A DNA stretch of 64,000 bases from Escallonia rubra. Its lineage: Eukaryota; Streptophyta; Magnoliopsida; Escalloniales; Escalloniaceae. Both the position numbers and the translations under genes were made by a program. Shown here piece by piece: positions 30,821 through 58,703 of the stretch; positions within the stretch are counted from its first letter, which is position 1; every line of letters begins with the position of its first letter. The stretch lies in contig JAVXUO010001535.1 in the NCBI GenBank assembly GCA_033065855.1, forward strand, positions 48,501 through 112,500, written 5' to 3'. A model generated the notes under the pieces. That model did no database searches, had not been told where the DNA came from, and was given only the letters and a program-made list of their open reading frames with translations.

Positions 30821-31564
30821 GGGAAAATTAGGAATACATGGGTTTTGTAGTTAATTATTTGGGGTTGATGGGTTTTTTTGGAGAAATTGTGAAAAGAGAG
30901 GGCCAAAGTTTAAAATCTCTGAAAGGTGGGATTACTTGGGAAAAAATGGGTTTTTTTAAACCTTCCTATTTCCCCTTCCCCAAAATACCCCTCCCCACAG
31001 TAAACCCACATCGTGCACTCCACCCAACCTTTCTCCCCCAATCGGCCAATCCCTTTGTCCCCCTTCCCTCCAAAATTCTGCCTACCCCACTCCATCTCCC
31101 CCTTAACCCTGCAGGTTACCCCACCCCCACTCCCACCCCACCCCCTACCCTACTACGGTCACCCCCACCCCACCCTTAGCCCTATATTTCCCTCCAACCG
31201 AGACTTTCCCCCAATCCGAGAGACACGTCCTCCACCAACCCGCACTCTGTCTCCCGCCACCACACACGGTTGTCTCCTCCCCGCACCCAGCACCGCCACC
31301 ACAACACAGTCCTCCATCCCTTTCGCCCAACCCCTCAGCCCCCAACCACCACTATATGGTGGTCCTTCCCCCGACCCCGCTGCCGTAACGGATGCCATGA
31401 CGAGAAAATCAAGGATCGTTTCATGTATGTCGCTGTAGAGGCACTGAAGATCGCATTCTGAAGCTCGATGTTGGTGTGCGCCAGTGTAAAGGTACCCCTT
31501 CTTACATTTTCAGTGATCAGCAGGTTTCTTCGACGTTTGTTTGTGCGCGCCGTTGTAAAGCCCG
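30821..31564 (+). repeat. Left terminal inverted repeat of the Mutator-like element
   Basis: It matches the reverse complement of 57972-58703, starting GGGAAAATTAGGAATACATG and losing similarity just after TGTAAAGCCCGA. The C/T-rich stretch 30985-31400 looks like a promoter or 5' leader. Overlapping P- and T-rich or G-rich ORFs on both strands are by-products of this bias. A short motif common to both TIRs, TCAAGGATCGTTTCATG, is followed by CGCTGTAGAGGCACTGAAGA. Confidence 0.93.
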
Positions 31565-33077
31565 ACGTTTATCTATTTGTTGCTTTTTATGATTGAGTGT
31601 TTTTTGACAAATTCACGACCTTCCGTACTTTGGCATGCATGCAATTGCTTCAGTTGTAACAACTGAAATATTGGATGTACGTTGTTTTCCTCTCTTGGCT
31701 CTCTGTCAAGACCCAGAGCGTTGCATGAGTGGTTGTAGTCATGTGCACAGTTTGTTATGATAATCGAACTATATGCATATTTTTTGCCTTAGTTTTGTAT
31801 GGGTACATCAAACTTTATTGTTTTATGGTACGTGTTCTAGATACGTTACGCAACATTGATGACTAGGGGCTCAAATCTAATCAAAAGCCAAAGTGCAAAA
31901 TGATATGTAGGAGGTCAGTATATCCGCAGAGTTTCATTCGAACCAAAGGGTTGGGTTCTTAGCATCTTTCACAGAAAGTCTGATCCATGCTCTATCTTTA
32001 GATATGGAGGTCACTTGGGGAGTTCCCATAGACAGCAAAAGTTCTACTGGGAATTAGTTGCATTAAGTATTTTGTTTATGGTTTTTTCATGCAATTAGAT
32101 ATGAAATAATTGGCAAGTTGAGTTCTTTTGAAAGAGGTATCCCATTCGCTTCTTGAGTAAGACCCACATCAGTGGTTGTAGGTGAAGAAGTTTCATGCTA
32201 TATAGTTTTCAGAGGACTTGAAACATCAGATTAAGAAAAGAAAAAGCATCTGAATTCTCAGGAAGTGGGGGCTACTAATGTAGACATGAAGCAAGAAGTG
32301 ATATCTTCGATAGAATTGATATAAGCATGGACATCATATCGACTGAATAACACAACATTTCTCAAGTTAAAGTTACGACATGCATTAACAAAGCAGTTCT
32401 GAACAGGTAGGATAGATCTTCCTACCATGCCTACATGCATAAAAAAATGTGATATACAGTGTGCACACCTTGCGTGCGTGCATGCATGTGTGTGTGTGTG
32501 TGTGAGTGAGAGAGAGAGAGAGAGACATACACGAAAATCTTTATGTCATACATATCAGCATATTTGCAAAGAAGACGTTCAACGGTTTACCATTCTGAGC
32601 GGTCTGATCAATCCTGATATCCATGTGGATTGAAGCTTGAATAATAACAAGTTAAGACAGAAAAAGAATCCATCAGGTATTTGCAAATGTATTAGGAAGA
32701 ATAGGAAAAAAAATAGATGAGGTTGTTGGCAATAGTACACGCTTACCCTGCATTATGTAAAATTAAAGAAGCAAACGTGTATCGCATCTGTTGGAATACT
32801 TTTAATATCCTACTTATGTATAGAGGGTAGTTTGGCCCCTCTTTCTCTGTGTTTAGATGGTACCAGAGCATCGCTTTCAGGGTTTACGCTTACATCGATT
32901 TGTTTTCTTGATTTCTTTTGTCCATTCTATTTTGTTGTCCCACTATTTAAGAAATAAGGGACCGGGGGATTCGTAAACCCCTAGAGGCGTAAGAGATGTC
33001 TTAAGACTACTACGGGGTGGGTATCGGGTGTGGTTTGAACCCTTGGGGAGGTGACCAAACATCAGACTGGCTGTGAT
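31565..33077. other. Mutator-like interior, no gene recognised
   Basis: No coding similarity is seen. A possible copia LTR/primer-site relic is at 32789-32880: TGTTGGAATACTTTTAATAT, then GATGGTACCAGAGCATCGC, one base off the TGGTATCAGAGC primer site. Microsatellite at 32487-32526. Confidence 0.5.
32487..32526. repeat. (TG)n(AG)n microsatellite
   Basis: TG repeats followed by AG repeats, about 40 bp. Confidence 0.95.
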
Positions 33078-33207
33078 TGTAATACCCCGAAAATTTCCTT
33101 ATGCAAAAAATTGTATATTTTTTAATAAGTAAGTTTGTGGTCTTTTGTTAAAACTATGAAAATGAATTGGGATTGTTTCTGAAATTTTTGGTCAAATGAA
33201 CAGTAAC

Positions 33208-33515
33208 TTTTAGTCGAATTTAAAAGGTTTTAGTCGACTAAAAGTGTTTTCAGTCGACTAAAAGTGTTTCGGTCGACTAAAAAGTGTTTAAATTGTGTAA
33301 AAATGGTTTTCTGGACTTTTAGTCGAATTTAAAGGTTTTAGTCGACTAAAAGAGTGATTTCAGCCGACTAAAAGTTTAGTCGATGAACAGTGATTTTTGA
33401 ACAGTAACTGTGAACAGCGATTTTGAACAGTACTGTGAACAGTGATTTTGAACAGTACTTTCAGTCGACTAAAATGTGTTTTCAGTTGACTGAAAGTTGT
33501 TTTCGGTCGACTTAA
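33208..33515. repeat. Array of AGTCGACTAAAA motifs
   Basis: About nine copies of TTTTAGTCGACTAAAA-type near-palindromes (with GGTCGACT and AGTCGAAT variants) and AACAGTGATTTTGAACAGTA repeats, in the putative U3 upstream of the TATA box. Confidence 0.85.
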
Positions 33516-33535
33516 AGGTTTAAAATTTTTGTCCC

Positions 33536-33545
33536 CTATAAATAG
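33536..33545 (+). promoter_or_regulatory. Predicted TATA box of the solo LTR
   Basis: CTATAAATAG directly after the motif array, identical to the box in the related LTR at 7031. Confidence 0.6.
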
Positions 33546-35027
33546 TGTTCCATTTCATTCCTAGCCATTTTGTTCTTGATTTCTTGCTCCTTTGCGGCGG
33601 AGAAAGAGAGAATAAGAGGCTTAGAAAGCTCATTGGCGCTAGAGTGGTGCTTTAAGGTTTTCTTTGGTTCAAAAGCTTGTTTGAGGTAAGGGTTTGAACG
33701 TTCTTGCTGTGGTAAGGGTTTGTAATGTTTTTGCTATGGTATGGGTTGCTTCTTTAAATCTGAAAAAGAGTTATTGGAGTTGATTAATCTTGTTTTGTAA
33801 GGGATTCTACCTTTTAATTTTGGCTTGGGTTTTCCTTCTTTAAATCTGGAAAATTATTGGATTTTGATCAAGCTTGTTTGAGGTAAGGGTTTGAACGTTC
33901 TTGCTGTGGTAAGGGTTTATACGATTTTTGCTGTGGAAAGGTATCTTCGAAAATCCAAAGGCTTATACTTTTGTCACTTTTGATTCATCTATGCTCGTTT
34001 GTAATTGATTGCTCCACTTTTGCCTTCTTGAGAACATTGTTCACCCCTTCTCATTTGTGCCTTATTGATGCTCAACTTTGAATTTGTACATTTGTGACCG
34101 TCAATTTAAGATTGACATTGACTATATTGAACAACTCTCACATTGAGAGGGTCCTTTGGACACATGTTTGCTATACTAGAGAGCCGAAGCCTCCTAGTAT
34201 GCTCCGGAGCACAGGTTTGATGTTTGGTTCGACATTTGGGTCTTATGACCACCATAGTCATCGCATGGTTGTAGCGTACCCGACATATAATTGAAATGTG
34301 TTTTGGGTTAAACGCTTAATGACGTTTGCTTTGGTATTTGACAGTACGATATGATTGCACTTTCGTACCTTCGGGCTTGTATTTGATTTGGGTTCTTTAG
34401 ACCACCTTATGAACATTTCGTATATTTGATTCGCCTTATTTGCATCGTGGTCAATTGTTATTATTTGTTCGTCAGATATTTGATTTTGTTTTGGACTACG
34501 ACTCGTCGTATTTGATTCCCATTGGTTTTTCCACTTACTGGGCTATTCGAGCTCACCCCCTACTCGTTTGTTTTGTCCCTTACCACAGGTATCAGACGTG
34601 ATTTTCGGGCGTGGCATGTTTGGGGGAAATTAGAGTTTTTAGTCTTTGTTAGTATAATTGAGCAATGTAAATTATTTCACCGCTGCGTTTGGTAATTATT
34701 TTGTAAAGGAATACTCAGTTGAATTATTTTGGTGAACGGATTGTCTTAGACTTTTGTTTGTGGAGATATTTTATCTTAGAGGATTTAGTTGCTCTGTCTA
34801 TACCGTTATCTTTAGAACTGTAATGGTATATAATGGAGTTTGATGATAGTCGTGGCCTCGCGTTTTCGGGGAGTGACAGTGATCATAGAGGCTAAGTATT
34901 CAGGTTTGAGGGTTGTGTACTGTTGTGGAGAAACATGTACCAAAGCATAAGTTTTTTATTACTCAGGCAACTGTGTTTTAAGGTGTTGACATTGTGTTGC
35001 CAGTTGTCTTCTGTGTGGTGCATCAAG

Positions 35028-36842
35028 CAGTGGCGGTACCAAGATTTCACTCCAAGGGGTGCAAAAAAAATATATCGGAGTCACTGCTGCTCTCTTTCTA
35101 GGACTTTAAAATCATAAATGCAACAAAAAACAAAATGGAGCATACCAAAGGAGTCACTGCTGCTCTTTCTAGGACTTTAAAACAATAAATGCAACAAAAA
35201 ACAAAATGGAGCATACCAAAGTTGCGACAATTTGAAGCACTGACCAGAAATAGTTGATGGTGAAAGCTTATATTCTGAGTAAGAAAAACTAGTGAAATTT
35301 ATGTTTTTGGCTAGTAATGGTAGAAACCTATTGAGCCTACATGTTGTACCTTTAGCGCTTCTATATCTGTCACAACTGAATAACAGTGTCACACACCTCA
35401 GTTTGCTTATGCTACCACTTGTTGGGAAATTTTATTCATTCCGCACTATTGTTAGTGTAAATAGGTTATCTTTTAGGTGTAAAGGGTTCACACAAAAAGG
35501 AGTTCAGTGCATTAACTGACACGAAAAGATCACCATATTTTCCTCAATATAGGAGTGACTCACCTCTCGCACTTGGAAGGCAAGGAAGGGTATCCAATGT
35601 CACCTTGTTACTCTGATGAGGAGAGAAACAGAAGATTGCCACTAGGATCTTACTCACTATACACCAGAAGTCATGTTTACTATCCTGCCCTATGATATGG
35701 CTTTCCTATGTCTAGAAAAACATTGGAAAACTCGGTATCGGAAATTTGGACAAGATTATCCTTGTTCGTCTTAAGAAGATATTACAATTTATAAGTCTGC
35801 TAGACTAGATTTGAAATAACTACAATCTCTGACAGTCTCCATATGACACATTTTCTCTGCTAGACTGAAATTACCTACAAACTCTTTACTTTGCCTGTCT
35901 AGCAGCCACTGTCGGTCAGTAATCCTTCAATTTCTTCCATGCGAATCCTAGTGCGGAACATGTGGTGGCTTTGTAGATCAATTAATTGTTTAAGCATAAT
36001 GAAATCATCCATAAATCTCAGCACTCATGAATTGGTGAATGAAATATTCATCGCTTATAAGATTCAAGGTGAATATCCAAGAGGCATACTATCTTTAGTG
36101 TCAAATTTATTAGTACCAAGGCTCAGATATCTATGCATCATATATGTTAACCATTGTGCTTAGGTAGCGCTTCTCAGCTGATAGTTGGTACTGACATTGA
36201 CTTTGGAGTGTACACATACTTGGAAATCATATTGGAATTGCTCTTTGTAAATGTTCATTGTATGGTGCTTTGGGTTCCCCTGACTACTCAATGTACTTTA
36301 CGTAGTTACTTTCTTTTTTTGTTTTGTTATTTGTTTAGTATTGGTAATAAATGCTCCTTTGATGTCTTTTTGAATGCTTTGGTGATGATTAGTGGGTCTG
36401 TTGGGGATCTGAAAGTGAAGTACTGCTCTCCGGGCTAGCAATCTGTATTCCACAACGTATAAACGTTCGGAGGAGTGGAGTAATTGCCTCAGCTCACCCA
36501 ACCCATTTTCCCTTCATTGGCAATAGTTTGAGCCCTGAGGATTCCTTCAATTTTTGACTTCGGAGTAGTTTTGGCATATGCTTACTAGTCCATTGTACCA
36601 GGAAAGGAAAAAAAAGGGGCATATGCAGATTAATAACATTAAAGTGTCCACTGCATTAACAGTTCTTGTCTTTTGTCCGGTTGTGTAAAATGGCAGAGTA
36701 ATTTCTCCATTGCTAATTTGACGCATGGCCACGTGGTTGATCTAAGAAGTAATTACATATTGACTATAGTTTAGCTGTTGCAAGTGTAATTTTTGCATCT
36801 ACTGGGTGTCCACATTGTGTAAGGTTTATGGCTCCGCCACTG
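35028..36842. mobile_element. Non-autonomous hAT-like element
   Basis: The ends are inverted: CAGTGGCGGTACCAAG at 35028 and the reverse of CAGTGGCGGAGCCATAAA at 36842. CAGTGGCGGAGCCA-type termini are common in plant hAT elements. Flanks CATCAAG (left) and CATCTAGG (right) may be a diverged 8-bp TSD. Its 1.8 kb hold no transposase motif; ORFs of 60-95 codons are not recognised. It contains a 71-73-bp tandem duplication. Confidence 0.72.
35077..35220. repeat. Tandem duplication of about 72 bp
   Basis: GGAGTCACTGCTGCTCT...GGAGCATACCAAA occurs twice back to back with few differences, inside the hAT-like element. Confidence 0.92.
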
Positions 36843-36914
36843 CATCTAGGTACAATATTAGCTCGTGAAGTATGTACGTCTATTTACGATTGCCATTTTT
36901 TTCAACAATGAGCT

Positions 36915-37330
36915 CAAACATGGAGCGAGGTGAGGCATCTTGTACAAGGAAGAGGCCTGTCAACGCGTTCATGAGATTTTTGTAAGTTCTTGATAAAGTT
37001 TATAAAGTAGTGTATATGCAAGACATGTAATTATGATGAGTGTTTGACCTTGGTTTGCATTAATGTCTTCTTCAGCGCCGAAATAAAGCAAGGACTGCAG
37101 CAGTCCCACGCTAGTCGATACATGACGATGAGAGAGGTAATTGAAACTATTTCAGCATTTCTCAGCTCACTTATTTGGTAACCACTCTATTGACAATCTA
37201 AAATTTGTCTTTATTTTAGGTTTCACAGCTTGCCTCGTGAATGTGGAAAGACCTAAGCGAGGATGAGAAATTACCGTATGTCCTCCAAGCCAAAAATGAA
37301 TACAAAACCTGCCTTCCAATATGGCAGCAT
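36915..37330 (+). pseudogene. HMG-box protein fragment (three exons, in-frame stop)
   Basis: Exon 1 (36915 to about 36979) starts ATG and encodes RKRPVNAFMRF, ending at a GTAAGT donor. Exon 2 (about 37076-37136) encodes AEIKQGLQQSHASRYMTMRE between CAG and GTAATT. Exon 3 (from about 37220 after TTTTAG) encodes VSQLAS, a TGA stop, then [20 protein letters not shown]. Together these follow the HMG-box order, a DNA-bending domain of about 75 residues: the R-P-x-N-A-F-M start, and the W-K-x-L-S-x-x-E-K end. The stop falls where a residue before MW is expected. It may be a captured gene or part of an ancestral gene with the Ulp1-type exons 0.8 kb downstream. Confidence 0.68.
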
Positions 37331-38084
37331 GTCACTTGAACGGGCCTCTGCTTCTTTCAATGCAATGTAAACAGCTTCAATAACAGGACTATCACTTTCA
37401 AGGGAATCAAAATTATAGTTGAACACTACACTGTTAGACCAATAACGTCTTGAGTCAATTGAGAGAATTTTTCTTCCATATTAACAGTAGACCCATTGAA
37501 AACGTTGCTTTTGAGCTTGCCTCCCAATCTCTCAGCACATTAGCAGAACACCCGATCAACTATTACCGACAGGTGCTTCTTGTGAAGAGATGGAACCACA
37601 GCCCTGCGCCTTGCCCATCACAAGTTAGACCTTCTTGGTGGCTTGTGGGGATTTAAATTTATAAGCTACAAATATTGACCGTCGCATATTGGAAGCTTTT
37701 TAGACAAGACAAAGCCATGAGGCATTACAACGCGGGGTTGCAAAATACCAAACTGAACAGAAATTCACCAAAGGAATTCATAAGACATGTGATTCTAATT
37801 CTGACGCCTCCCATGGTCAACAATGCCTCCGCCATTATCATTGTTCTTTCAAGAAACAATGATAGCTCATATACATTGGTATTAACGGAGTAATTATTAA
37901 GTGATCTATCACTTAATAATTACTTAAATAAGTGATCTATCAATATTACGTTAGCAAATGATCCATTAAAGTTTACGTATAATAGTCCTATCCATAAAGG
38001 CCGACCGTTTCGAAGAATGACAGCGCCCAATACGAACCTGTATCTAAGCGCCTACGATCATTCTCCTCCCCTCCTGTAACTGAA

Positions 38085-40230
38085 ATGTCTCCTGCAGCTG
38101 CTCACTCCGAACGTGCCAGCCCTCGTTGTTCACCACCGACTCTGAGAGGCGACAACATGGATGATTCTTCCCTGGCCGACGACCTGCTCGTACCCTCATC
38201 AAAGTTGTCCTTTAGAACGAGGAGGACAAGCAACCGTATTATTGCAGAAAGGGCTGCGGCCGATGCGTCAATCATCCGTCCCCATCCAAAGAGGAGGTCT
38301 GCTCCAATTAGAAGGGTGAAGTGCTCTAACACGACAAGGAGCCCCTTTTTTTGTTTTGCCGGTGACAAAAGGTGACGCTCTCAAGGCTACAAAACAGGAA
38401 GCTGTGAAGAACGTCTTCCAGTCCGAAGTCCCTACGAGGTAATGAATCTGCTTAAGTCTTTTGGGGTATTTGGGTCATTTTATTTATAGAATTTTTTATT
38501 ACTTATCCTATTATTTTCATTTCTTATCGACAGTTCGGTTGTCGTTAAGATGCCTCAAACCTTCTTGACTAAGGACCGAATTCTCACGCTATAGGGGAAG
38601 CAGTGGGTCTCATCCGAGGTCCATATCTCTACATACCTCTTCCAGCAGCTTACTTAGATATTTAGAACGCGAATAACCAACTAGCATGATAATCAGAAAC
38701 CAATCCGCTCACTCAGTGTGATAAATCTAGTGAACTTATAGTTACTGAGCTATTCTATAACCATGAAATGTCATGATTTGAGTGGTCTCTAAACTGAAGT
38801 TGGCATTAATTAGAGACAGGTTCAGATATGCTCTAACTGAAGGTGTTAAAATCATCTTCTCATATGAGAAATGTATATACGATGCCATGCGATGAGAATA
38901 ATATTGCATATCCCATTTAGGGAAGTTGTTATCAATGTTCAAATGTCGTTTGCATACCAACGAGGTTGACAGCTCGTAGTCCCTACCTTATGTTTCAGGT
39001 TGTTGATGCGTGGTCGGAGGTCGTCAATGCCAACCGTTCAGGCTTTATGCTACGTTACACATTTGCCTCCGATTTTGTGGTGATTTACTTTGTTTCAATT
39101 TGAGTATTGCTCATATCTTTGGTCTAATTGTTTTGAAACTGAGCCATGTATACCTATATAAACTGCAGTCCTCAATTATCAAATTCACGGATGACCTCAG
39201 GTCCGACGATGAGATCTTCAACTTCTTCTCCCGCTTCTTTGAACAATCTAACCCGCTGATTAAATTGGAGGACGTCCAGTTGGTATACTCTTCGGTCATT
39301 GACTTCTTCCATATCAGTATTCTATCTGTAAATTGGCTTTGTGCACTTGCAAGGTTCAAATGCATACATGTTTAGATGGCACTAAATGTTAAAAACCAAG
39401 ATATTTAGCTCAGTGGACATTGCCTTTATATCAACCATTTTAGGTGTATTGTTCATTACACACCTTAGGAACTGTTCTTCCCTTTTCAGTTCTCCGTGCC
39501 AATTTTTTGGGAGTATCATTGGTTTATGCTCTGCATCAACATCAACAAGGAGTGCATCGACTACCTCGACTCTGGTCGACGCAGTGTTTTGGATGAGATT
39601 GAGGTTTTCCACTCGACGCAGTGTTTTGGATGAGATTGAGGTTTTTCGCAGGCACCTGGTATATACTCAGCCATGGCATTTATTACAACTGTCGAAATGA
39701 TATAATATAAAGTAGAGCCATCATAATATGTTTAACCTTTGCTTTGGTTAGGCCCGCGTCCAGTCTTCTATGTTGAGGCATAAAGCTGGTAGAGACATTG
39801 ACCTTCAGCCTTACGCTTTCCAGAGTCATCCGTGTCCAAAACAAACAAACGAGTATGATCTTCTCTTATTGTAACCATATCTCCTCTCAACTCCGTTCCT
39901 AACTTCATCCTCTTAATGACATTACTGAACAACGTGTGTTATGAACTATTTCAGTGATGATTGCAAAGTGTTTACATTGAAGTTCATGGAGCATTTGTGG
40001 GGCAAGTTCAGTGTAGCGATCTTCCCGGTAAGGGTGTAAACCTTGTTTGCATTTAAGTTTTCGCAATGTTTTAGTATACACGATTGCAAGTAAATTCATT
40101 AGTAGTTTCAAGCTCCTCTAACATAATGCTTATGTCATTTGTTCGAGGTCAAGCACTACAGAGTCCAGATTGCTGCCAGGTTGATTCTCCATCCATTGAA
40201 TGACATTCAACTCTCGGTGGTACACGCAGT
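38085..40230 (+). pseudogene. Ulp1-type (C48) cysteine peptidase pseudogene, copy 1
   Basis: About eight exons with GT/AG borders are visible: 38085-38438, 38534-38618, 38999-39079, 39169-39282, 39490-39658, 39752-39852, 39955-40027 and 40148 onward. The peptidase family removes SUMO-like modifiers. Landmarks: FWEYHWFMLCIN (catalytic His) and CIDYLDSG (Asp) in exon 5, CPKQTNE at the end of exon 6, DDCKVFTLKFMEHLW (Cys; DCGVF in the family) in exon 7, and YRVQIAARLILHPLND in exon 8. Defects: a frame change at a T-run near 38347, a TAG in exon 2, and a 37-bp tandem duplication in exon 5. It lies inside a Mutator-like element, like Kaonashi-type MULEs that carry Ulp1 domains. Confidence 0.78.
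39564..39645 (+). repeat. 37-bp tandem duplication inside a peptidase exon
   Basis: TCGACGCAGTGTTTTGGATG and the following AGATTGAGGTTTT are repeated at once. The duplication length is not a multiple of three, so it shifts the frame of exon 5. Confidence 0.88.
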
Positions 40231-40509
40231 AACAACTGGTGCTAAGACTTATCTACCAACCACTCATGAGGCATGTAGCTTAGCCTTCAAGGCAGATTTG
40301 CTAGGCTATGCCTTTTCATCCTCCCATGATCCGGGGTACGAGCCAATTCGCAAGTTTAAATTTAGTTATTCTCCTCTTAAGACATTGACCACCTATCCTC
40401 TGTGCTTTTAATCCCGTTGTCCTAACTCACAATGTTTCCACACAGAAGATTCACATTGTTCATCTTGCACATAGTAAATAACGTGTTAACCCTACGATTA
40501 TTTAACCTA

Positions 40510-41745
40510 GGATTATATTTGGTTTTGATGATAACCAACATTGATGTTTATGGTGTCTAACATGCATTGAGTTGTTGAAGTAATAGGAACAATCTCATAC
40601 TCATGCAAACAGACTATTAGACGAGCAACACGGTCAAAGACTCTCAACGGAACGCATCAAAGAAGGAATTCGTCGAATTGAAGTTTTCATGTTTTTATTT
40701 CCTTCTTTGTAAACTAGACATAGAGAGATGATCGTTATGGTGACTGTATACCTAGAACTTGCGCATAGATTTTTCTTGCATGCATAAAAGTTTTTCATGC
40801 TTTAAAAACAAGAAAACTGCATTTTTTGGAATGCAGTCGACTGCAAGTTGGGCAGTGAGGTATTACAGTCGACTGCATTAGAATGCAGTCGACTGCAATA
40901 CTTCCAGTAGCCTATTACAGTCGACTGCATTGGATTACAGTCGACTGCAAGTTGGAAATTTGAATTTCCAACGACTACTTTGGGATTACAGTCGACTGCA
41001 ATGGTGCATTACAGTCGACTGCATTTAGCGTTTTGGCGCATTTAATGCTCCACCTACCCCAAACGGTCATATTTATTCCCACCTCTATAAATACTCATCT
41101 TGGGCATAGTTTTCATTCATCAATTGCATTCAAAGCTCTCTTGTCTTTCATATTCTCAAAGATCAAAGCAATTGTTCAATCTCTCTTGGTTTTCATTGAT
41201 TTCTCATCCATTTCAAGAGAGCATTTATTGTGAGCTTACACTTGAGAGATATACACTTTCAAAAGTCATCATACACTCATCTCTCTTGTTCTAGTGCTTA
41301 AACTTGTACTCATATACTTATTGAGAGTGAAATCTTGTACACAATTCTTCATCTAAAGGTTCTTGTATCAAAGCTTGGGGTTGTCAAGCTTTGGAGCTTT
41401 GGGTTTGTCAAAGCTTGTTCTTGATGTGGGCATAGTATCAAGGGATTGTAAGAGGTTCGATCTTGACCCATAAGGAAGATCATACTAGTGGATTCTAGGG
41501 TCTTTCAAGGGACTTCCTTGAAGGGGTGGACGTAGGCTTGAGGGTATATCAAGCCGAACCATTTAATTCTCCTTGTCAAGTATCTCTAAACCCTTCTCTC
41601 TTTACATTATCGTTTTACATTTGGGTTGAGATTGGTTGTTTGCTTATTTGAGTTATTGAGATTGAGGTTTGTTGTTTGTTAATTTTTAAAGTAGTCTTAA
41701 AACTCTATTCACCCCCCCCTCCCCCCTCTAGGGTTATCTTTTTGG
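40510..41745 (+). mobile_element. Copia-type (SIRE-like) solo LTR, borders approximate
   Basis: The start GGTTTTGATGATAACCAACA and the end CTATTCACCCCCCCCTCCCC (then CTAGGG) are typical of LTRs of the SIRE/Maximus group of Ty1/copia (by recollection). A CTATAAATA box is at 41085 and a leader follows. No internal coding region or second LTR is present. I could not fix a TSD, so the borders are uncertain by some tens of bases. It separates the two Ulp1-type pseudogenes. Confidence 0.65.
40832..41025. repeat. Array of CAGTCGACTG palindromes
   Basis: Eight occurrences of (T/A)(G/A)CAGTCGACTGCA, several forming the perfect 14-bp palindrome TGCAGTCGACTGCA, in the LTR upstream of its TATA box. Confidence 0.9.
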
Positions 41746-41833
41746 TTTCATAACGCATTCCTTTTTTTCCATGAATTCAATTTTAAAGGCTTCCTTTCAT
41801 CGGTTTCCCACGTATATGTTTGTGCCTTTTGTA

Positions 41834-45589: not shown

Positions 45590-45594
45590 GCTCC

Positions 45595-47301
45595 TGTAAT
45601 ACCCCAAATAATATGTAGCTAATTATTTTAATTCTTGGACTACTTTTAAAGTTTTAATAATATTTTGGAATTCCTTTTGAATAAGTAACATATTCTTTAG
45701 GGGCCTTTAGAGTAATTTACCAAATTTAGAGAAATAAAAAGACTGGTTAGTTGTGTTTTATCGATAAATTGAGTCTGGTCTTTCAGAAAGAGTAGAAGAA
45801 AGAGAAAATTAGGGCTTCAGGATTTCAACCTTCTACTTACAATTGGTAAGAATCTTGAACCCACTTTGGATTATAAGGATGAATTAGATCATATTAGAAT
45901 TGTTCTTGTTAAGATTTTTAACGTAAGTGGGTTAATTGTAATATCTAGGTTTTGAGGTTTTTGGAAGCGGTCGCAATTTGGTGAAGACTGTTATATAGAT
46001 TCGAGGTAAGGGTTACACTCATAATACCCCTTCTTGTAATGATTTTCAATATCGTATTTATGATAATTAGATCGTAAATAAAAATTACTCTGAATTTTGG
46101 TTATCACGCCCGTGAATCGTATATGATTACAGTAATTGTTTTTGTTTTTGTTTGTCGTATCCCTGTACCGTTGCCAGTTAAGCAACCGTCTTCTTTTTCT
46201 CCTGTTGACAGTCGTCCTTTCAAGGGCAAAGGACAGCCCCATCTTTCAGCCATCTTTGGCCGTGTGAGGATGGTGCATGTGCCACGTGGCACCACTCAAA
46301 TGGTGGACAAATCATTGTGAACCTTTTTACCTATATTTCGATATTTGAAATTTCTGGAACCGTACGAACTCAGATTCAAGCGATTTCACTTCCGTTAAAC
46401 TCGTCTCTTCATCCTCTTCGATTCGAGTCTAATATTAAGTAGTTTCTAAAATCGTTAAGTCATCCTTATTGAAATATAAGTTTTGATACTTTTGCTGCTA
46501 GTATATCCGTGAGATATTTTGATGTCCGTTTGACCTCTCTGAATTGAACTAATATTTTAGAATCTTCACGTGCTTAGGTTAACGTGATGCCATGACATGA
46601 TATGGCAATTGCTACCGGTATGCAACTTTGAACTTAGAACATTCGCGTGCTTAGGTTAACGTGCTTTACAATCACGTATTACGTGATTGTATCGTATTTG
46701 ATAATTAGTTCAATTATTCGATTGCGTTCATCTGACTTTGACTTTGATTTGATATTTGATGGGTTGGATGTCCCGAAGTGAGATTATTTGTCGTGCTAAG
46801 ATTTTCAATCGTCTTTGCACTTTCGTTTCCATATACTTTGTTTGGACTCAGCTACACATTATTGAATACCAGCGTTGTACTCCGTGGGTGTGTGCGTGTG
46901 ATCTTTACTGGGCTTTGTGCTCACCCCCCTTTTCTCTCCCCATTTCAGGTAGTTAAGCTGAGACGGCTTAGAGGAGTTAATAGCATTATGCTTAAGCTTG
47001 GAGTTGAACTTTAATTGATAACTCTCTTAGTAGCTTTGAAATAAGAACCTTGTAATAGTTTTTGATTTAATGACTTTTGTTACCCTAATGCTTAGGAAAT
47101 AATTATTGTTATCAAACTTCCGCTGCAATTGTTAGACTTTGATGAGGAACTTGAATGCCTTTGATTTCAGATATAATTTAGAGCTCTGATTACCTCCTTG
47201 AGGTCATATTTTGGTAAGATGCTTTGGGTATTATATTTCTCGTAAGCAGGAATATTTTGAAATAGTCTGTGTAGGTCCGTCTCCGGGTCGGGGGCGTGAC
47301 A
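45595..47301 (+). repeat. 5' LTR of the gag-only gypsy derivative
   Basis: 1,707 bp, TGTAATACCCCAAATAATAT to GGGGGCGTGACA. Duplicated with few changes at 48720-50428. Short ORFs within it (about 46123-46320 and 46756-47014) recur in the other LTR and are not genes. Confidence 0.95.
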
Positions 47302-47305
47302 GATT

Positions 47306-47317
47306 TGGTATCAGAGC
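47306..47317 (+). other. Primer-binding site (tRNA-iMet type)
   Basis: TGGTATCAGAGC four bases after the LTR end. Confidence 0.93.
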
Positions 47318-47486
47318 CTAGGTTTAAGATTCTGTAGACTCTTTAGACTTAAGCTTTCAATGATTTGAGATGAACTTTATGATGTTTGAGATATAGTTCT
47401 GAGTAGTCTAATTTTAGTAGTACTTATGTTTGAAGCGTTTACACAATAAGTTGTGATCTTATAAGTTTTTCGCTATCTCAGGAGCT

Positions 47487-48493: not shown

Positions 48494-48502
48494 TGTAGTG
48501 AC

Positions 48503-48719: not shown

Positions 48720-50428
48720 TGTAATACCCCAAATAATATGTAGCTAATTATTTTAATTCTTGGACTACTTTTAAAGTTTTAATAATATTTTGGAATTCCT
48801 TTTGAATAAGTAACATATTCTTTAGGGGCCTTTAGAGTAATTTACCAAATTTAGAGAAATAAAAAGACTGGTTAGTTGTGTTTTATCGATAAATTGAGTC
48901 TGATCTTTCAGAGAGAGTAGAAGAAAGAGAAAATTAGGGCTTCAGGATTTTAACCTTCTACTTACAATTGGTAAGAATCTTGAACCCACTTTGGATTATA
49001 AGGATGAATTAGATCATATTAGAATTGTTCTTGTTAAGATTTTTAACGTAAGTGGGTTAATTATAATATCTAGGTTTGAGGTTTTTGGAAGCGATCGCAA
49101 TTTGGTGAAGACTGTTATATAGATTCGAGGTAAGGGTTACACTCATAATACCCCCTTCTTGTAATGATTTTCAATATCGTATTTATGATAATTAGATCGT
49201 AAATAAAAATTACTCTGAATTTTGGTTATCACGCCCGTGAATCGTATATGATTACAGTAATTGTTTTTGTTTTTGTTTGTCGTATTCTTGTATCGTTGCC
49301 AGTTAAGCAACCGTCTTCTTTTTCTCTCGTGTTGACAGTCGTCCTTTCAAGGGCAAAAGACAGCCCCATCTTTCAGCCATCTTTGGCCGTGTGAGGATGG
49401 TGCATGTGCCACGTGGCACCACTCAAATGGTGGACAAATCATTGTGAACCTTTTTACCTATATTTCGATATTTGAAATTTCTGGAACCGTACGAACTCAG
49501 ATTCAAGCGATTCCACTTCCGTTAAACTCGTCTCTTCATCCTCTTCGATTCGAGTCTAATATTAAGTAGTTTCTCAAATCGTTAAGTCATCCTTATTGAA
49601 ATATAAGTTTTGATACTTTTGCTGCTAGTATATACGTGAGATATTTTGATGTCCGTTTGACCTCTCTGAATTGAACTAATATTTTCGAATCTTCACGTGC
49701 TTAGGTTAACGTGATGCCATGACATGATATGGCAATTGCTACCGGTATGCAACTTTGAACTTAGAACATTCGCGTGCTTAGGTTAACGTGCTTTACAATC
49801 ACGTATTACTTGATTGTATCGTATTTGATAATTAGTTCAATTATTCAATTGCGTTCATCTGACTTTGACTTTGATTTGATATTTGATGGGTTGGATGTCC
49901 CGAAGTGAAATTATTTGTCGTGCTAAGATTTTCAATCGTCTTTGCACTTTCGTTTCCATATACTTTGTTTGGACTCAGCTACACATTATTGAATACCAGC
50001 GTTGTACTTCGTGGGTGTGTGCGTGTGATCTTTACTGGGCTTTGTGCTCACCCCCCTTTTCTCTCCCCATTTCAGGTAGTTAAGCTGAGACGGCTTAGAG
50101 GAGTTAATAGCATTATGCTTAAGCTTGGAGTTGAACTTTAATTGATAACTCTCTTAGTAGCTTTGAAATAAGAACCTTGTAATAGTTTTTGATTTAATGA
50201 CTTTTGTTACCCTAATGCTTAGGAAATAATTATTGTTATCAAACTTCCGCTGCGATTGTTAGACTTTGATGAGGAACTTGAATGCCTTCGATTTCAGATA
50301 TAATTTAGAGCTCTGATTACCTCTTTGAGGTCATATTTTGGTAAGATGCTTTGGGTATTATATTTCTCGTAAGCAGGAATATTTTGAAATAGTCTGTGTA
50401 GGTCCGCCTCCGGGTCGGGGGCGTGACA
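48720..50428 (+). repeat. 3' LTR of the gag-only gypsy derivative
   Basis: 1,709 bp copy of the 5' LTR with scattered substitutions and a few single-base indels. Confidence 0.95.
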
Positions 50429-50433
50429 GCTCC

Positions 50434-51089
50434 CAAGAAGTTTGATAGGACATTTTATGGCAAGGCACATCAATTGCCCTGTACTAAATCAAACTCTCAA
50501 GCAAACTAGACGTTTGAGCTGATACAGTCAGGCAGAGTGGTCAAGGGGAACAAGAGATCCCTAGGAGGCAAGAAGTACAAGTACAATTTTGGCCCGCCTA
50601 ACAGGATATGTGTGGGCGTATATTCTTGAAACAAAAATCTCAATCTATTGCAATGCCTTTTCAACTAAATATGTTGTTAGACCATTTATACAACACTGAT
50701 AAATCTAAAGCATGCATGGAAGCAGAAAGAGAGGTTTTTTATGGTCTCTGGTTGATAATGTTGAAGGACAATACTGACAATCTCTCTTCGTGAACCAAAC
50801 AGAGATTGTCATGGAGGAGACATGTAAGGAGTTCAGTGTAACCAAGCCACATAGAGGGTAACTGGGTTGCAGTTACAGAGCTCTCTGTCAGGGACAGTGG
50901 CCTATACATGAATTTCATTGTGTCCCCTTTCACGGGGTAGTTTACACCTCTTAGAGGGGATGGTCATAGATGGGGTAAAGCGGACTGGATATCGGAATTC
51001 TACAGAGCCCCTAAAATCTGACCCGCCTCACCCAACTTGTCCTAGAGGACAATGGCGTGGTAGGGAACTGAAATTCAAGTTTAGGTCAG
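50434..51089. other. Mutator-like interior, no gene recognised
   Basis: The segment around 50540-50620 encodes YKYNFGPPNRICVG, which weakly recalls the cytochrome P450 haem loop but lacks its key glycine. No other similarity is seen. Confidence 0.4.
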
Positions 51090-51095
51090 TTACCC

Positions 51096-51385
51096 TAACT
51101 CACGTCTTCTCACTAAGTGCCAATCACTTGACGGGCCAGATTCCACCAAGCTTAGGGAGTATGAAAAACCTTTTTAGGACAAACTTCGGCCTAGAATCTC
51201 CTTTGTAGGTATCTCCTATGTAGGTCCTATCCCACCAACTTTCCAAAAAGGCATATATCTTTAGTTTAACGTCTTCTAAGCATTGAATGTGTTGTCTGGT
51301 TTAATCCCAGAATTCGTAGGTAAGTTACACAATCTGACATTTCTTGACCTCCCGAATAACCAATTATAAAGGCAGATACACGGTT
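51096..51385 (+). pseudogene. Leucine-rich repeat protein fragment
   Basis: Three plant-type LRR units are seen in broken frames: LSANHLTGQIPPSLGSMKNL at about 51114-51173, VGPIPPTFQ near 51222, and LSGLIPEFVGKLHNLTFLDL followed by NNQL at about 51290-51367. The spacing and the L-T-G-x-I-P signature are those of extracellular LRRs of receptor-like proteins. Stops and frame shifts are present and no kinase or membrane segment follows. It is probably a gene piece captured by the Mutator-like element. Confidence 0.7.
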
Positions 51386-51849
51386 CCTTTTGCAATTATA
51401 AGTTTGATGCTTATAGCGACAATAATAATAATGTTAAAGAAACAATAATGGAAATTCCAAACTTACTTACAATCAACGGACACTCAATCACGATTTTTGC
51501 AGTAACCTTGCAGCATAGTAAATATCCCCAAAATTAATGCCAGACTCCTCCTGAAATTTTAAACATGATCACGAATAAGAATCTTTGTCGAGGAGAATAT
51601 AAACAAGTTAAGACAGTAATTGTTACACCGTTTATATTTGCATAATCTTGTTTAGCATTTGTGCGTAAACTCCATGACTCCTTGTGGGAATTTTTTAAAA
51701 ATGGGTCAAACAGAAAACAATAGCACTTGCAAGCTGTATAGACACTTTTAGATCAAAAGTTGACGCATCTTCGTTCCTATTGTTTAAATTTATAACGCTC
51801 CAATGGAGAGTAGTGTTAGACTACTCACAAATCATTGTTGATTTATAGT

Positions 51850-52640
51850 TAGAATTCCCCCTTTCCATTGAAGTAGGGGAAGCTGGGTGAAAGCTCTAAG
51901 CCCGCATATTCAGATTATGTGTTCAGGGCAGTGTATCCAAACCATTCAAAGGGGGAAAAGAGTTGGATTGCACCCCTAGCAATGCCCTTCGGAGCGCATT
52001 GCTAGGGCTAAGTCAACGTTGATGATCTATTTTTCTCATATTCTCTTCTGTGGGAAACACACCTCACACACTGTATCATCTGATGTCTCGCATCCATCGG
52101 GATAAGTGGTGCGTCTGTCTTATCTTCCCCTAAGGTCTATAGTCTTCAAAGGCCCTCTCTCCAATCCGAGCAACAAAACGAGGGAGTTGGTGAAACATAT
52201 AGATATTCAATAATGAATAAGATGTGGATCCGTTCCAAGGCCCCTCCTAAAAACCTTAGGGCGTTAATTTTTTTTCCAGGAATCTGTCAATACGAACGCA
52301 ACCAAGTTTCAAACATCAAAGCCGTTTCCTTCCTTGTTTGATTTGCATTCCACGTTGGTTCCAAAGAAAGGGTTGGAAAATGGAATCAATCAATGGTCAG
52401 ATAGGCCTCCCGTCCAATTTCCTAAGACAAGATCCGTCGTACTTCGGAGCCCTGTACTAGCCTCGCCCTATCTAAAGGCGGGTGGAAGACAGTCCGCCAC
52501 TATAGCTTGCCATGCTCTCGTTCCTATTTGCTCCCACCTGTCTTCTCCCCATAGCAGGGACCTCGCCAGCCTTCTCGGAAAGTGAGTGATCCTCGCTGCT
52601 GGGATTCCCTCCAACTTTCCCATCCTTCTATCTATAGGTA
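51850..52640. other. Possible organelle-derived insert (NUMT-like)
   Basis: The base composition rises towards 50% GC against AT-rich neighbours, and the texture (GCTGGGTGAAAGCTCTAAGC; CTCGCCCTATCTAAAGGCGG; CCTTCTCGGAAAGTGAGTGA) resembles plant mitochondrial intergenic DNA. An 83-codon ORF at 52334 has no recognisable product. This is an impression from composition and style only. Confidence 0.35.
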
Positions 52641-55555
52641 AGCTATGTTGGGATCGTCTACGGAACTAAGTTTTACCACTGATAAACTACGACCGCTACC
52701 ACTGATAAAGCCACCATTGTTGTCAAGACAGCCATCATTCATACCAACATACATCCATAATTGCTGCCATAATTACTGCTATGACTTATGTTGTATAACA
52801 CTATCACAGTCAGCCATAACCACCTCATGCAAAACCACCACCATTACCAAAAATATGATATCATTCACATCTGTAAGATCAATTGCACATTTACTGCCAA
52901 TGCCACGTCCGCCTCCATATTTTGCACGTGCTAAAAGTTGTATGGTTTGTAATTAAGTTAGAAGTTGTCTTATGCATCATATATATTACATCAGTGCATT
53001 AATTTTTCAAACTTATTCTAATTGGAACTGTTAATGCCCCAAATAAATTCAATTACCTCTTGTAATTTAATTTTAAAAAAAATTGGTTCTAAATCAAGTG
53101 TAACATCTTAAAAGGTTAGTGTATGAGACCACAAAACTCACGAAAAAGCGTACTAAGACCTAATAAGATTTTCTCCGGAGTTAATTTTAGCAATCTTAGT
53201 GGATAAAATGCTACTCTATTTCAAATCTCTTAGAGTTTCTAAGCCTTCTTTCATAATTCTAGAATGAAATTTATGAAATACATTGTAATTAAATATATAA
53301 CAACATATCAATAATTAAAGACGAACCAGCCAAGTACAATAGATAAATAGTTGCCGAAGATTAAAAAAAACTTGATCGTGTTTAAAACATAGTTACATTA
53401 TGTTCTTCAAAAAACATAGCTAGAACATAATTAAGATTATGGACCGAATTGAGGTATAATGTTTGTTCTAGATGCGAACAGGTTTACCATTCGAAAGTTG
53501 CAATCATTTGATACTATACTTAAGCCCTCAGTCTACCTTCTCATTTCGTTTAACCAATGGAGTTTTATCATTCTCTTTCCCTCAGTGATCCAGCTTAGAT
53601 TGTTTTGTTAACCCGACCAACATCTGGCGTAATCCACTAAAAATAATCCATGAAAGAGCAGTAAATTAAAATACAAATAGAGAACAGTAAGGGTTTTAAA
53701 AAAAAAACTGGAGAATAGAGAAGCAGAATATAAGAGACTCTAAGGCATTCATTTTGCGAAGAAGTCTTGCATATAGATGCACACCGAAGCAGGCATATAC
53801 TTTTAACAGATTAATTCTATTACCATGTCTCTTTCTAATAACAGGATAGTGTCTTTTGTCAAGCCAGCAAAATCTTTTTAAGTCTGATAATAAGCGGCTG
53901 AACTTTAGGATAGGGAATTTTTTTTCTTTATGATCTACATTGTTTTTGAAGCTGGGGACCTGACGCTTGCCCCTTATCTTTTACCACCTAGATGTTCTCT
54001 TTGTTGTCCTCTGCTAGTTACCTTAATATGTTATTGCTAATGAGATAATTCTATGTCATGAAACAAAATCCGAAAAAAACAAACAAATATTAAACAACTT
54101 CAGAAGACACTTAACATCATATACACGTCTCAGGTTGCCTTAACAGCACTAATGTCGCATTAAAAGCAACTTACCTCCCTTGGACCATATTTAAAATCTG
54201 CTCATATAGATTAACATGTTAACATACTTGGTAAAACTTTAGGCCGTTAATTATTAACCATTGATGTTTCCTACATCGGCTTATATTCTCGAGAATAGAA
54301 ATGTTAGGGTTGCTTCGGTCTTTATTGCCTAACTGAACGATGAATACATCAAGGCATGACTATTTCAAGGCATTTTCTTTATTTTTCTCATATATGCTTG
54401 ATGCTAAAGATTTCATATAACTGACTAAAGAACATTCGTTTTGTGATAGTATAAATAGGAGTAATTAAACAAAAAATCACATAATTAGATTGCAAATTGT
54501 GTAAATAATACGCAGAGTAAATTAGAATGCATATTATGTTGTGTAGTCATACATCTGTGTCTAGAATATTCTAATACCACTTTTATCTTATGCGGGATGT
54601 ATCACTAAAACCATGTTTTTCAAATTACCAGTCAATCCTAATGTCCCATAAAATGCTCCTTAATTGGTGCTAGCTTAAACATATTGTGAAGCCTAAGCAA
54701 TTACTGGAAAGATTCATGCAACAAGGTTTAGTTTGTTGCATGAATCTTTCCGGAATGAGGTGTCTACCCCTGGCTGAGATCAGGTCTAAACGTTAACTCT
54801 TCCTCTGGGGCCCTTATAATTGACAAGTGAGAGATGCATAATGATGCCAAAACCAACTTGGTTGACCTCTAAATCAATGTGTGTCTGCATAAGGGACACA
54901 TCTTGCTGCAAGCAAAAGAATGGCATTTAACATTCATCGTCAAGCATGACATATCATAGCTCATGATGGCAGTTCGAACAAAATCATGTGCATGTAAAAT
55001 CATTTGCAATGGCAAAATAATCTTTTTTTAATTGCGTATCTTCTTTTTCTTTTGGTATACGTGTGTGATATCTTCTTCTTCTACCCAATTGAATACTTCG
55101 AGCTCACGGTGGATTTTTTTGTTTAAGTTTATACCTCTTCTTTTTCTTGTAATTGCACTCATTCATTTTTCATTTCAATTGGTGTACATTAGGTTGACGT
55201 AAAAAGCAACAGCAAGGTATAGAGAGAAGTATGAGATTGCATTGAACTCGTGGACAGTGTTTACGAGTCATCATCGTCATCCAGGCCTTCGTCCCACATC
55301 GTTAGTTCGGCTAAATGAATCATTTTCTTTCATTTCCCTCAATCAAAGCATAGGACTTGTTAGCACATGTTTTCTTACAAATCCTTAGCAATCAAGTACT
55401 TTCACACAACTTATACCTTTAAATCGTCTTACCCAATAAACTTGTCACAAATCAACTTCTTCTTACAACGTCTCTAGCCTCACTGCCGTCCTATAAAGCT
55501 TTGCTTAAAGTTTGAGAAAAATAACAAATCACAAAGCACCCAAATGCCAATCTCT
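52641..55555. other. Mutator-like interior, no gene recognised
   Basis: AT-rich sequence with no convincing coding similarity. It contains a short hairpin at 54704-54751 described separately. Confidence 0.5.
54704..54751. repeat. Short hairpin, related to a copy at 56055-56087
   Basis: CTGGAAAGATTCATGCAACA and its inverted copy TTGTTGCATGAATCTTTCCG face each other over a few bases. A third copy, CTGGAAAGATTCATGCAACA then AACTAAACCTT, is at 56055. The middle copy and the third form inverted ends of a 1.36-kb interval. Confidence 0.8.
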
Positions 55556-55995
55556 ACTTTAACGGACTGCTCTAAATCCTGCAGGCAACATGCTCGTCAA
55601 CCTCTCCCTCCTTGTGCCCATCCTCCTCGTTAATATCTCCCTCCTTGTGCCCATCCATTTTAATATCTTCCCGAGTGCCTCCTAGTTTTACTAAAATTGA
55701 ATCTCATCTCCTGCTTAATCCAAAACCTTTGAATTTTAAAGTACTCCCCATAACCTTAACTTAACTCACTCGTACTCTAGCCTCGTCAAAGTAAACTAGA
55801 TCATCCGCAAATAAAATAAAACGACGAACGTCATCCTGAATATGATTAGAGAGCTTCTCCATTACCAAGGAAAAACCATAAGCTTCTAAAATCAAAGCCT
55901 TGGTGAAGTCCATTTTATTGTTCTCACGTTAGTAGTAGCTCGTTCAAACATATCCTTCATCAAATCAACATAGCTTATAGGGACTCCTTTTTCAC
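55556..55995 (-). pseudogene. LINE-type reverse transcriptase fragment (decayed)
   Basis: On the minus strand translated pieces in changing frames follow the order of plant LINE-like reverse transcriptases: YVDLMKDMFERATTNVRT near 55970, LVMEKLSNHIQDDVRRF near 55850, the active-site motif ILFADDLVYFDEARV near 55810, then LKFKGFGLSR near 55735 and a G/D/E-rich tail. Stops are frequent. A short duplication (TCTCCCTCCTTGTGCCCATC at 55604 and 55637) is present. No LINE poly(A) tail or TSD is identified. Confidence 0.68.
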
Positions 55996-57257
55996 TAGAG
56001 CTTGCTACTCATAAATCTACAAAGACCATGCTAGGATACACTCTTGTGAAGCAGAAGGAATTACTGGAAAGATTCATGCAACAAACTAAACCTTTGACCG
56101 ATTAATTCTGAATACTACCACTTCCCTCTCTTGAAATTGCATCAATACTGTTGGTCTCAAGTCTCAACAGAAACAACAGAACCAAGTATGTTACCTTAAA
56201 CTTCAAATGTCAAATTATACTAAACCGAATCTAGCTCGAGAAACCAAATCTGAAATTTCTCCAAAATAGAAGACACGTTAATCTTGACCTCAAAAATTCA
56301 TTTCTTAAAATTTTGAGGGCTTTCCTTATACTTTGAAGTGCTAAAACCTCTAAGTGCCCCATTAAAACTTAATCAATCACTATGTAACTTATGATTCTAA
56401 TTTAACTTAGCCATGAAAATTGGCATATGATTCCAAAGTAAACTTCATGATAGCAGCAGACACATGTGTGCATAAAATAAATATGCGGGTATATGGCATG
56501 AAACTTAAAAGGAAATCATACATGTTTTACACAAGCTACATATGTATACTCTCATACACAAGCATGTACATATCTTCGGACTAAAGCAAATAGTATACAC
56601 GTCAAGCACCTATTCAGAAAGAAGTTAACTTGTTATTACTTGAACTAAACTCAAAGCACTCACTCACCTCAACCTTTGAGAGAGAGGTGCACATCTAAGT
56701 TAAAAGCAACACTCTTGGTGTTGACATAGGCTATTTGTGATCTGGCTTCTCAAAAACCTTTCCTTGTGACAGTCACAGCCCCGCATGCTTTTAGCTGCGT
56801 ATTCTATTGGTAATGTTGATAGGGCCCATAACTGAAAAAGCAGTGGCACCACAGCTGTGTCGTCCATTAGAATACTTTATGAGAACATGTAATTGTTGTA
56901 ACCGTTGGAACATATATTTTGCCCATGTTATCTTCCCCTTCTCGTCCTCATCTTCTCTATCTTATAATTAAAGTGAGAATATTACGTGTCGTTGGGTAAA
57001 TTATCTGCAACGATTTCGATTAAATATCCATAAGATCAGATAAGCTAGAAATTTGCTTATCTTATCGATATATTGTCGGTTCGAGTTGATTCTCCCTTTT
57101 ATTAAAATTATCTCACTTCTAAATTTGTCACAGTGTCTATTTCCTTTTTTTTTTATCAACAGAGGCATCATGTATGGGTCCAAGCCCTTAGAACAATATG
57201 CATAGGTAAAAAGACAATCAACTAAACGAAAAGGCATAAATTCAAAGCAGAGGACTA

Positions 57258-57385
57258 TATTCTTGAATTGTAATGGAGCAATGACAGAAAAGAAAGGATA
57301 CTAACTTCTAAAACTGCAATGTATTCTTGAATTGTAATGGAGCAATGACAGAAAAGAAAGGATACTAACTTCTAAAACTGCAATG
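57258..57385. repeat. Exact 64-bp tandem duplication
   Basis: Two adjacent copies of TATTCTTGAATTGTAATGGA...AAAACTGCAATG without a mismatch that I can see. Confidence 0.95.
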
Positions 57386-57704
57386 GAATTCTAGCAATAA
57401 CTAATTAGCTGACATTTTCACTGATGATACCATCAGAATTCTCTCCTTTAATAAATAGTAATAGTTGCCAAGGCACAAGCCTCGCAGACTTTAAAAAAAA
57501 AGGGAAGTTGCAAATGTTGAGAAGGCTCGGTTTATTCGCTCCGGTCTTTTTCAAAACATGTTGCCTATTTTACAGTTGCTAAAATTTCTTCGTCTCAATG
57601 TGCAACACCAGAATTGCTTGTTACACCAAGCTTGTCATTTCCTTAATACAGTCGTACGCGACATACACCTCTCTACTGCTTTATAAAGCCGGTAGCCGTG
57701 CAGG

Positions 57705-57938
57705 TTAAATAGGAGTTTCGCTTTTACCGGTTAAAACGACGATACTTGGCAAGATTGAACTAGAAGATACCACAAGTTTTACGCAACGACCTTTTACTAG
57801 TTCTAACTCCACCTTCACCTTCTTAAAAAACTGGCAGTGGCTCTCCTCGTCAATCTCAGTCAGCACATGTGCCACCTCGACTTCTTCTAAACCATAACGA
57901 AAAGCAACATAACAGAAAAACCGACTAACGGCATTCAT
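57705..57938 (-). CDS. Small ORF reading inward from the right TIR, unknown product
   Basis: An open frame on the minus strand runs from inside the right TIR (58028) to 57705; the first ATG is at 57938, leaving 77 residues (MNAVSRFFCYVAFRYG...). The middle part is acidic and charged (EEVEVAHVLTEIDEES) and the end hydrophobic (VVSSSSILPSIVVLTG). I do not recognise it. It starts where the two TIRs stop matching, so it may be the first exon of an arm-specific or captured gene. It could also be chance. Confidence 0.3.
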   Translation of the reverse strand: MNAVSRFFCYVAFRYGLEEVEVAHVLTEIDEESHCQFFKKVKVELELVKGRCVKLVVSSSSILPSIVVLTGKSETPI

Positions 57939-57971
57939 CGCCAGGGAAATAGAATAGAAACAACACAAAAT

Positions 57972-58703
57972 TCGGGCTTTACAGCGGCGCGCACAAACAA
58001 ACGTCGAAGAAACCTGCTGATCACTCAAAAAATGTAAGAAGGGGGTACCTTTACACTGGCGCGCACCAACGTCGAGCTTCGGAATGCATCTTCAGTGCCT
58101 CTACAGCGACAAGCATGAAACGATCCTTGATTTTCTCGTCACGGCATCCGTTACGGCAACGGGGTCGGGGGAAGGACCACCACGTAGTGGTGGTTGGGGG
58201 CTGAGGGGTTGGGCGAAGGGGATGGAGGACCGTGCTGTGGTGGCGGTGTTGTGTGCGGGGAGGAGACAGTCGTGCGTGGAGGCGAGAGACAGAGTGCGGG
58301 TTGGTGGAGGACGTGTCTCTTGGATTGGGGGAAAGTCCCGGTTGGAGGGAAATATGGGGGTCGGGGTGGGGTGGGGGTGACCGCAGCAGGGTAGGGGGTG
58401 GGGTAACCTGTGGGGTTGGGGGAAGGTGGAGTGGGGTAGGCGGAATTTTGGAGGGAAGGGGGACAAAGGGATTGGCCGAAATTGAGGGAGAAGGGATGGG
58501 CGGAGTGCACGATGTGGGTTTCCTGTGGGGAGGGGTATTTTGGGGAAGGGGAAATATGGAGGTTTAAAAAAACCCATTTTTTTTCCAACTCACCCCACCT
58601 TTCAGGGGTTTTAAACTTTGGCCCCCTCTTTTCACAATTTCTCCAAAAAAAATCATCAACCCCAAATAATTAACTTCAAAACCCATGTTTTCCTAATTTT
58701 CCC
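57972..58703 (-). repeat. Right terminal inverted repeat of the Mutator-like element
   Basis: The reverse complement of the left TIR, ending TCCTAATTTTCCC at 58703 and followed by the TSD AAATAGAAA. Differences include small indels in the C-rich part. G-rich ORFs on the + strand here are composition artefacts. Confidence 0.93.

Follow-up and report, generated by a model that had tools for sequence, protein, structure and literature searches.

A 27,883-bp Mutator-like element of Escallonia rubra, best read as a deletion-derived, non-autonomous member of a giant, Ulp1-carrying family

Mutator-like elements (MULEs) carry target site duplications (TSDs) of 9–11 bp and terminal inverted repeats (TIRs) typically of 100–500 bp, according to the section of PMC3310237 used here, and in the corresponding section of PMC3903597 more than 95% of the candidate coding MULEs of maize and rice measured 2–10 kb once nested insertions had been removed. 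Larger families appear in the grapevine table of PMC2528002, the portion of that paper on which we draw, where Mutavine-1 is the longest family (17.7 kb) and Mutavine-7 has the longest TIR (710 bp, with a TSD of 9 bp), neither of them combining both maxima, and where the starred families that include Ulp1 range from 7.1 to 16.2 kb. Ulp1-bearing MULEs of plants comprise KI-MULE/Kaonashi of Arabidopsis, Mutavine-3, -4, -17 and -18 of grapevine, and MULEs of melon and rice. Here we describe a Mutator-like DNA transposon at positions 30821–58703 of a 64-kb stretch (the window) of the Escallonia rubra contig JAVXUO010001535.1 (positions 48,501–112,500), for which the best reading is a non-autonomous copy, derived by deletion, in a family of giant MULEs that carry Ulp1 and bear the MURA transposase. 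It is a single MULE lying within one long terminal repeat (LTR); very probably it arose by internal deletion from a MURA-bearing giant member, and it would then have been moved in trans.

The family is remarkable chiefly for its size, which exceeds the published values cited, including those of the starred grapevine families, yet all structural and coding features that were tested identify it as a MULE; no larger MULE family was met with in the literature looked at, which was drawn on in part and is no survey of the field. Set beside Mutavine-1 and Mutavine-7, a likening by features and not by sequence, the window copy has a net length of 19,965 bp, and two relatives measure 29.6 and 37.0 kb with any nested insertions included. 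As in the Ulp1-bearing MULEs, again likened by features and not by sequence, the family unites an Ulp1/C48 region (in the window copy) and MURA (in relatives), with C48 and MURA on opposite strands, as the same portion of PMC2528002 describes for KI-MULEs. However, KI-MULEs are non-TIR elements, whereas this family has TIRs of about 740 bp and is therefore not filed among them. The window copy also resembles a Pack-MULE in being non-autonomous, with long TIRs and a 9-bp TSD, but appears to differ from one, its interior being family sequence as opposed to a private set of host gene fragments.

Borders, insertion site and net size

The element spans 27,883 bp between exact 9-bp duplications, and its ends are composed as follows.

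30812–30820, no strand: left TSD, AAATAGAAA (read from the sequence)
30821–31565, plus strand: left TIR, 745 bp (inverted-repeat alignment; 61 own-genome matches listed)
57972–58703, minus strand: right TIR, 732 bp (inverted-repeat alignment)
58704–58712, no strand: right TSD, AAATAGAAA (read from the sequence)

The two TIRs pair from their first base over 752 alignment columns, 27 of them gapped, with 674 of the 725 aligned bases identical (93%). A 27-bp terminal pattern, allowing up to three mismatches, had two matches in the window, namely both ends of the element, where 0.00 were expected, and AAATAGAAA occurs exactly twice on the plus strand of the window, at the two element ends and nowhere else. 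The exact 9-bp TSD is within the range known for MULEs, and the length of the TIRs is above that typical of them.

Searches of the genome were made in the species' own 566-Mb assembly (one assembly, in which the window is G000:C2000:48501-112500). By flank comparison, the sequences on either side of the element are parts of a single host LTR.

30235–30820, minus strand: part of the host LTR with the LTR end, including the left TSD
58713–60881, minus strand: part of the host LTR with the LTR start

This LTR reads on the minus strand from 60881 to 58713 and then from 30820 to 30235, with a total of 2,755 bp. When the joined flanks were used as an 800-nt probe (400 + 400; 40 of 147 candidates scored, 49 rows listed), the probe was unbroken over 1–800, 1–799 and 1–800 in contigs C1241, C1756 and C2658, respectively, at 86–89% identity. 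Five more rows (C2400, C210 twice, C2092 and C1671; 71–83%) covered at least 100 bases on each side of the join, which was thus crossed to that extent by 8 of the 49 rows listed. The three uninterrupted copies are paralogous sites and not the allelic empty site. The claim of contiguity rests on this search because local alignments of the flank pieces with a solo LTR at 14063–17498 failed to beat shuffles (55 against a shuffle maximum of 66, and 48 against 52, with 60 shuffles each), and the solo LTR was dropped as a proof.

Three later insertions, each with a 5-bp TSD, interrupt the element and sum to 7.9 kb.

33078–34878, no strand: nested solo LTR, TSD GTGAT on both sides; site empty in C260 and C1790
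40484–41750, no strand: nested solo LTR, TSD TAACG on both sides; site empty in C67 and C2773
45595–50429, plus strand: nested LTR retrotransposon, TSD GCTCC; site empty in C2773 and C756

The retrotransposon has LTRs at 45595–47302 and 48720–50429 that are 98.5% identical, and its 1.4-kb internal region holds a single gag open reading frame (ORF) only. When the three insertions are removed, each together with one copy of its TSD, the MULE is left with 19,965 bp. A preliminary description of this DNA had counted four visible later insertions and roughly 18 kb remaining, both of which are revised here; the 139-bp palindrome at 43182–43320 was rejected as a fourth later insertion, since C67 and C2773 have it at the equivalent position and it is therefore older than the window copy. 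The following parts of the outline given there were borne out: a Mutator-like element with these borders, TIRs of about 740 bp, an exact 9-bp TSD, flanks that are halves of one LTR (the comparison it proposed with the uninterrupted LTR family did find contiguous copies that span the join), a very large size when set against the 17.7 kb of the longest grapevine family in the table used, and the lack of a transposase of its own. One further feature lies near the right end.

57258–57385, no strand: exact tandem duplication of a 64-bp unit, which is single at the same place in C811, C3005, C2826 and C756

The TIR family and its transposase

In the left-TIR search, 40 of 554 candidates were scored, and, for comparison with relatives, the sequence surrounding TIR or MURA matches was read in 13 other contigs. 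Three of these share the termini of the window copy and have 9-bp TSDs. C67 has both ends 37,016 bp apart between exact copies of TTTTAATTT, its right TIR being shortened by a deletion (it was read outside 113316–120099, part of which an inner-probe match covers); C2773 measures about 29.6 kb, with the TSD AAAAGGAAA and, adjoining it at the right end, a single altered terminal base; and C2268 measures 13.0 kb, with exact copies of TTTCTATTA. At a threshold of at least 75% identity over at least 60 bp, 18,486 of the 18,488 non-nested inner bases of the window copy are shared with one or more further TIR-family copies (16,934 with two or more), and its interior is therefore family sequence.

No MURA was detected in the window copy, neither by a six-frame Pfam scan of 31566–45595 and 50430–57991 nor by tblastn of a relative's MURA against the window, in which the best E value was 1.3 and no transposase was found. 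The transposase that marks the family as a MULE is instead found in relatives (C67, C3005, C2773, C756 and C505). In C505 it forms an unbroken frame of 720 amino acids (aa) with matches to MULE (E 1.9e-11), DBD_Tnp_Mut (4.2e-7) and SWIM (1.1e-5), all above cut-off. Nine contigs (C67, which supplied the MURA query, and C2773, C3005, C1747, C2138, C1326, C2679, C756 and C911) contained matches to both the TIR and MURA that were placed relative to each other as expected, where about 0.1 would be expected by chance on a rough estimate. Of the 36 other contigs matching the inner probe, 16 had a MURA match no more than 16 kb away, in every case on the strand opposite to the probe. These linkage counts are lower bounds, with 148 of 952 candidates scored in the MURA search and 40 of 250 in the inner-probe search. 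Between copies, MURA pieces displayed a modest synonymous excess (9/7, 13/18, 19/31 and 18/20, against about 27% synonymous expected).

The place at which the transposase would have been lost can be located to a few bases.

45384–45387, no strand: likely deletion junction with the 4-bp microhomology TGAA; relatives carry a MURA-bearing stretch here

That stretch measures 12.0 kb in C67, where TGAA is common to both of its sides, and about 9.6 kb in C756, whereas the window copy reads straight through. From the MURA piece to the base matching 45383/45384, C67 and C2773 share 1,413 bp at 93.5% identity. In C2773, a different deletion has removed the far part of MURA and joined the truncated gene to window base 45115, an arrangement explained more readily by separate losses than by separate gains. 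The window copy thus likely descends from a giant family member bearing MURA, from which an internal deletion at 45384–45387 would have removed the transposase stretch (loss here presumably, as opposed to gain elsewhere); the break could have been repaired through the microhomology TGAA, and the resulting MURA-less copy would have been mobilised in trans by the MURA of a relative.

The plain join in the window copy could also mean that the MURA stretch entered some members as an insertion of its own, distinct from the family, with the window copy keeping the original MURA-less state and the 4-bp overlap being a short target duplication. We regard this as most unlikely, as a MULE insertion would leave 9 bp and not 4, self-comparison of the 12.0-kb stretch of C67 shows no repeats joining its ends, MURA is at the same place in five loci and accompanies the inner probe on 16 contigs, and C2773 carries its own, different deletion there.

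Several observations nevertheless weigh against a derivation of the window copy by deletion from a giant, MURA-bearing MULE. As to the autonomous relative proposed for search in the preliminary description, MURA is present in five relatives, and none of those read has an unbroken MURA frame together with both ends: the C505 contig stops before a second TIR, the MURA of C67 (read outside 113316–120099) consists of two open pieces split by a stop, and that of C2773 is truncated. In addition, the 9.6–12.0-kb MURA stretch may itself hold nested insertions, so that the ancestral size is only bounded. The preliminary description passed its own refuting check on other TIR copies, given the termini and TSDs described above for C67, C2268 and C2773, though two of the five other bounded pairs, C972 (18.0 kb) and C2826 (4.8 kb), lack a clear 9-bp TSD. 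Finally, a tree of 20 TIRs leaves the two TIRs of the window copy apart, without a resolved placement among those of C67, those of C2091 and a six-row group.

In the same tree, the two TIRs of C972 and the two of C2773 pair with each other (support 99/98 and 100/100, respectively), and TIRs therefore look homogenised within some elements, so that the 7% difference in the window copy serves as a rough guide to age only. The divergence of the TIRs was not used as an insertion age, because the right TIR is no closer to its left partner (92.7%) than to the TIRs of C67 (93.5%) and C2091 (93.6%).

Further variation was noted in the family. At G000:C2826:351958-361585, the 4.8-kb member is followed by about ten head-to-tail copies of TIR positions 1–396, an array resembling MULEs with multiple TIRs. 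Other members hold an insertion of about 3 kb (L017:3761-6872, L028:4975-7982) at the base equivalent to window 54086–54093; with ends about 67% like the family TIR, it is likely a nested related MULE, is absent from the window copy, and shows one of its ends in C505 and C2773. Another MULE family in the same genome is highly amplified and has numerous MURA frames of 777–783 aa that are unbroken; among the best 150 of 3309 candidates in the MULE-domain search, no match lies in the family copies read.

The Ulp1-type cargo

The Pfam scan for cargo covered the same two intervals as that for MURA in six frames at E ≤ 0.01 and gave one piece above its cut-off and one below. The interior features of coding interest, with a second C48-like piece from beyond that threshold, are the following.

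37217–37306, plus strand: HMG-box-like piece, below cut-off (E 0.0012)
37995–37996, no strand: likely deletion junction, where an extra 2.29 kb is present in C260 and 2.33 kb in C2773
39496–39591, plus strand: decayed catalytic piece of Peptidase_C48 (Ulp1), E 1.3e-6
42466–42564, plus strand: second C48-like piece, below cut-off (E 0.032)

The piece at 39496–39591 scores 28.9 bits against a cut-off of 20.7, covers 33 of 217 profile positions, and gives the window copy the C48 domain by which Ulp1-bearing MULEs are recognised. In the window orientation, it lies on the plus strand, and the MURA genes of C67 and C756 lie on the minus strand. Upstream of it, the window copy is without the extra stretch that C260 and C2773 carry at 37995/37996, and keeps C48. 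The open readings in these extra stretches (199 and 258 aa) match the plant mobile domain weakly (PMD; E 0.0035 and 0.0041, below cut-off) and presumably resemble the N-terminal part of Ulp1-like proteins encoded by plant transposons. In one pair of copies, the PMD-like exon differs at 15 synonymous and 16 nonsynonymous codons, with about 28% synonymous expected in the absence of constraint, a modest excess that is suggestive of constraint from this one pair. PMD proteins have been related to proteins encoded by transposable elements (in the part of PMC8616336 used here). For ORF 37998–38372, purifying selection was not seen: 1-base gaps are present, and substitutions by codon position were 12/11/8 against C2773 and 12/14/2 against C260. 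Neither the C48 region nor the PMD-like ORF had a match at E ≤ 0.01 in protein databases, a PDB sequence search with the three plus-strand frames of 31566–45595 gave a C48-like match at E 0.38 plus chance-like rows, and Rfam and plasmid-record searches were uninformative.

The preliminary description had seen pieces of several unrelated gene families and proposed a gene-capturing MULE; above cut-off there is one C48 piece. A giant Pack-MULE, non-autonomous and with pieces of host genes captured between its TIRs, would accord with the undetected MURA, with the C48 piece and the weaker HMG-box-like and C48-like pieces inside, and with the commonness of gene capture among MULEs (in the parts of PMC2528002 and PMC13317346 used), but it was rejected because the interior is family sequence shared among TIR-bearing copies, and is made highly improbable also by the family's own MURA, by a single domain exceeding its cut-off, by C48 and PMD-like pieces being of kinds known from transposable elements (the Ulp1-type remnant from other MULEs), and by the absence of a known parental host gene, no search aimed at one having been made. 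In a deletion derivative of the giant MURA-bearing family, the Ulp1/PMD-like remnant would instead be an old gene of the element and not a fresh capture.

Both the MURA-bearing C67 and the MURA-less window copy sit between exact 9-bp duplications at sizes well above those usual for MULEs. This makes testable in one genome the upper size of a still-transposing Mutator element and, in the same genome, whether the carried Ulp1/PMD-like gene is kept by selection. It is conceivable, albeit doubtful, that this lineage of giant Mutator elements, with observed sizes from 20 to 37 kb, transposes several genes as one unit under no tight size limit, and in it the PMD/Ulp1 gene opposite MURA would act as a counter-silencing factor and 20-kb MURA-less derivatives would be mobilised in trans.

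Repeats neighbouring the host LTR

For the host LTR itself, no pair of matching TSDs was detected. A truncated LTR of the same kind, at 28386–30234 and in opposite orientation, ends exactly where the host LTR ends (30235). The solo LTR at 14063–17498 (3.4 kb, TSD GTAAG on both sides) is a distant relative of the host LTR. Between these, at 17998–27559, two direct repeats of 2.5–2.7 kb (99.5% identical over 1,835 bp, with tandem units of about 169 bp and a GC content of about 0.6) enclose a gag-like ORF of 610 aa at 23065–24894 on the minus strand, and the whole reads as a GC-rich unit resembling an LTR retrotransposon.

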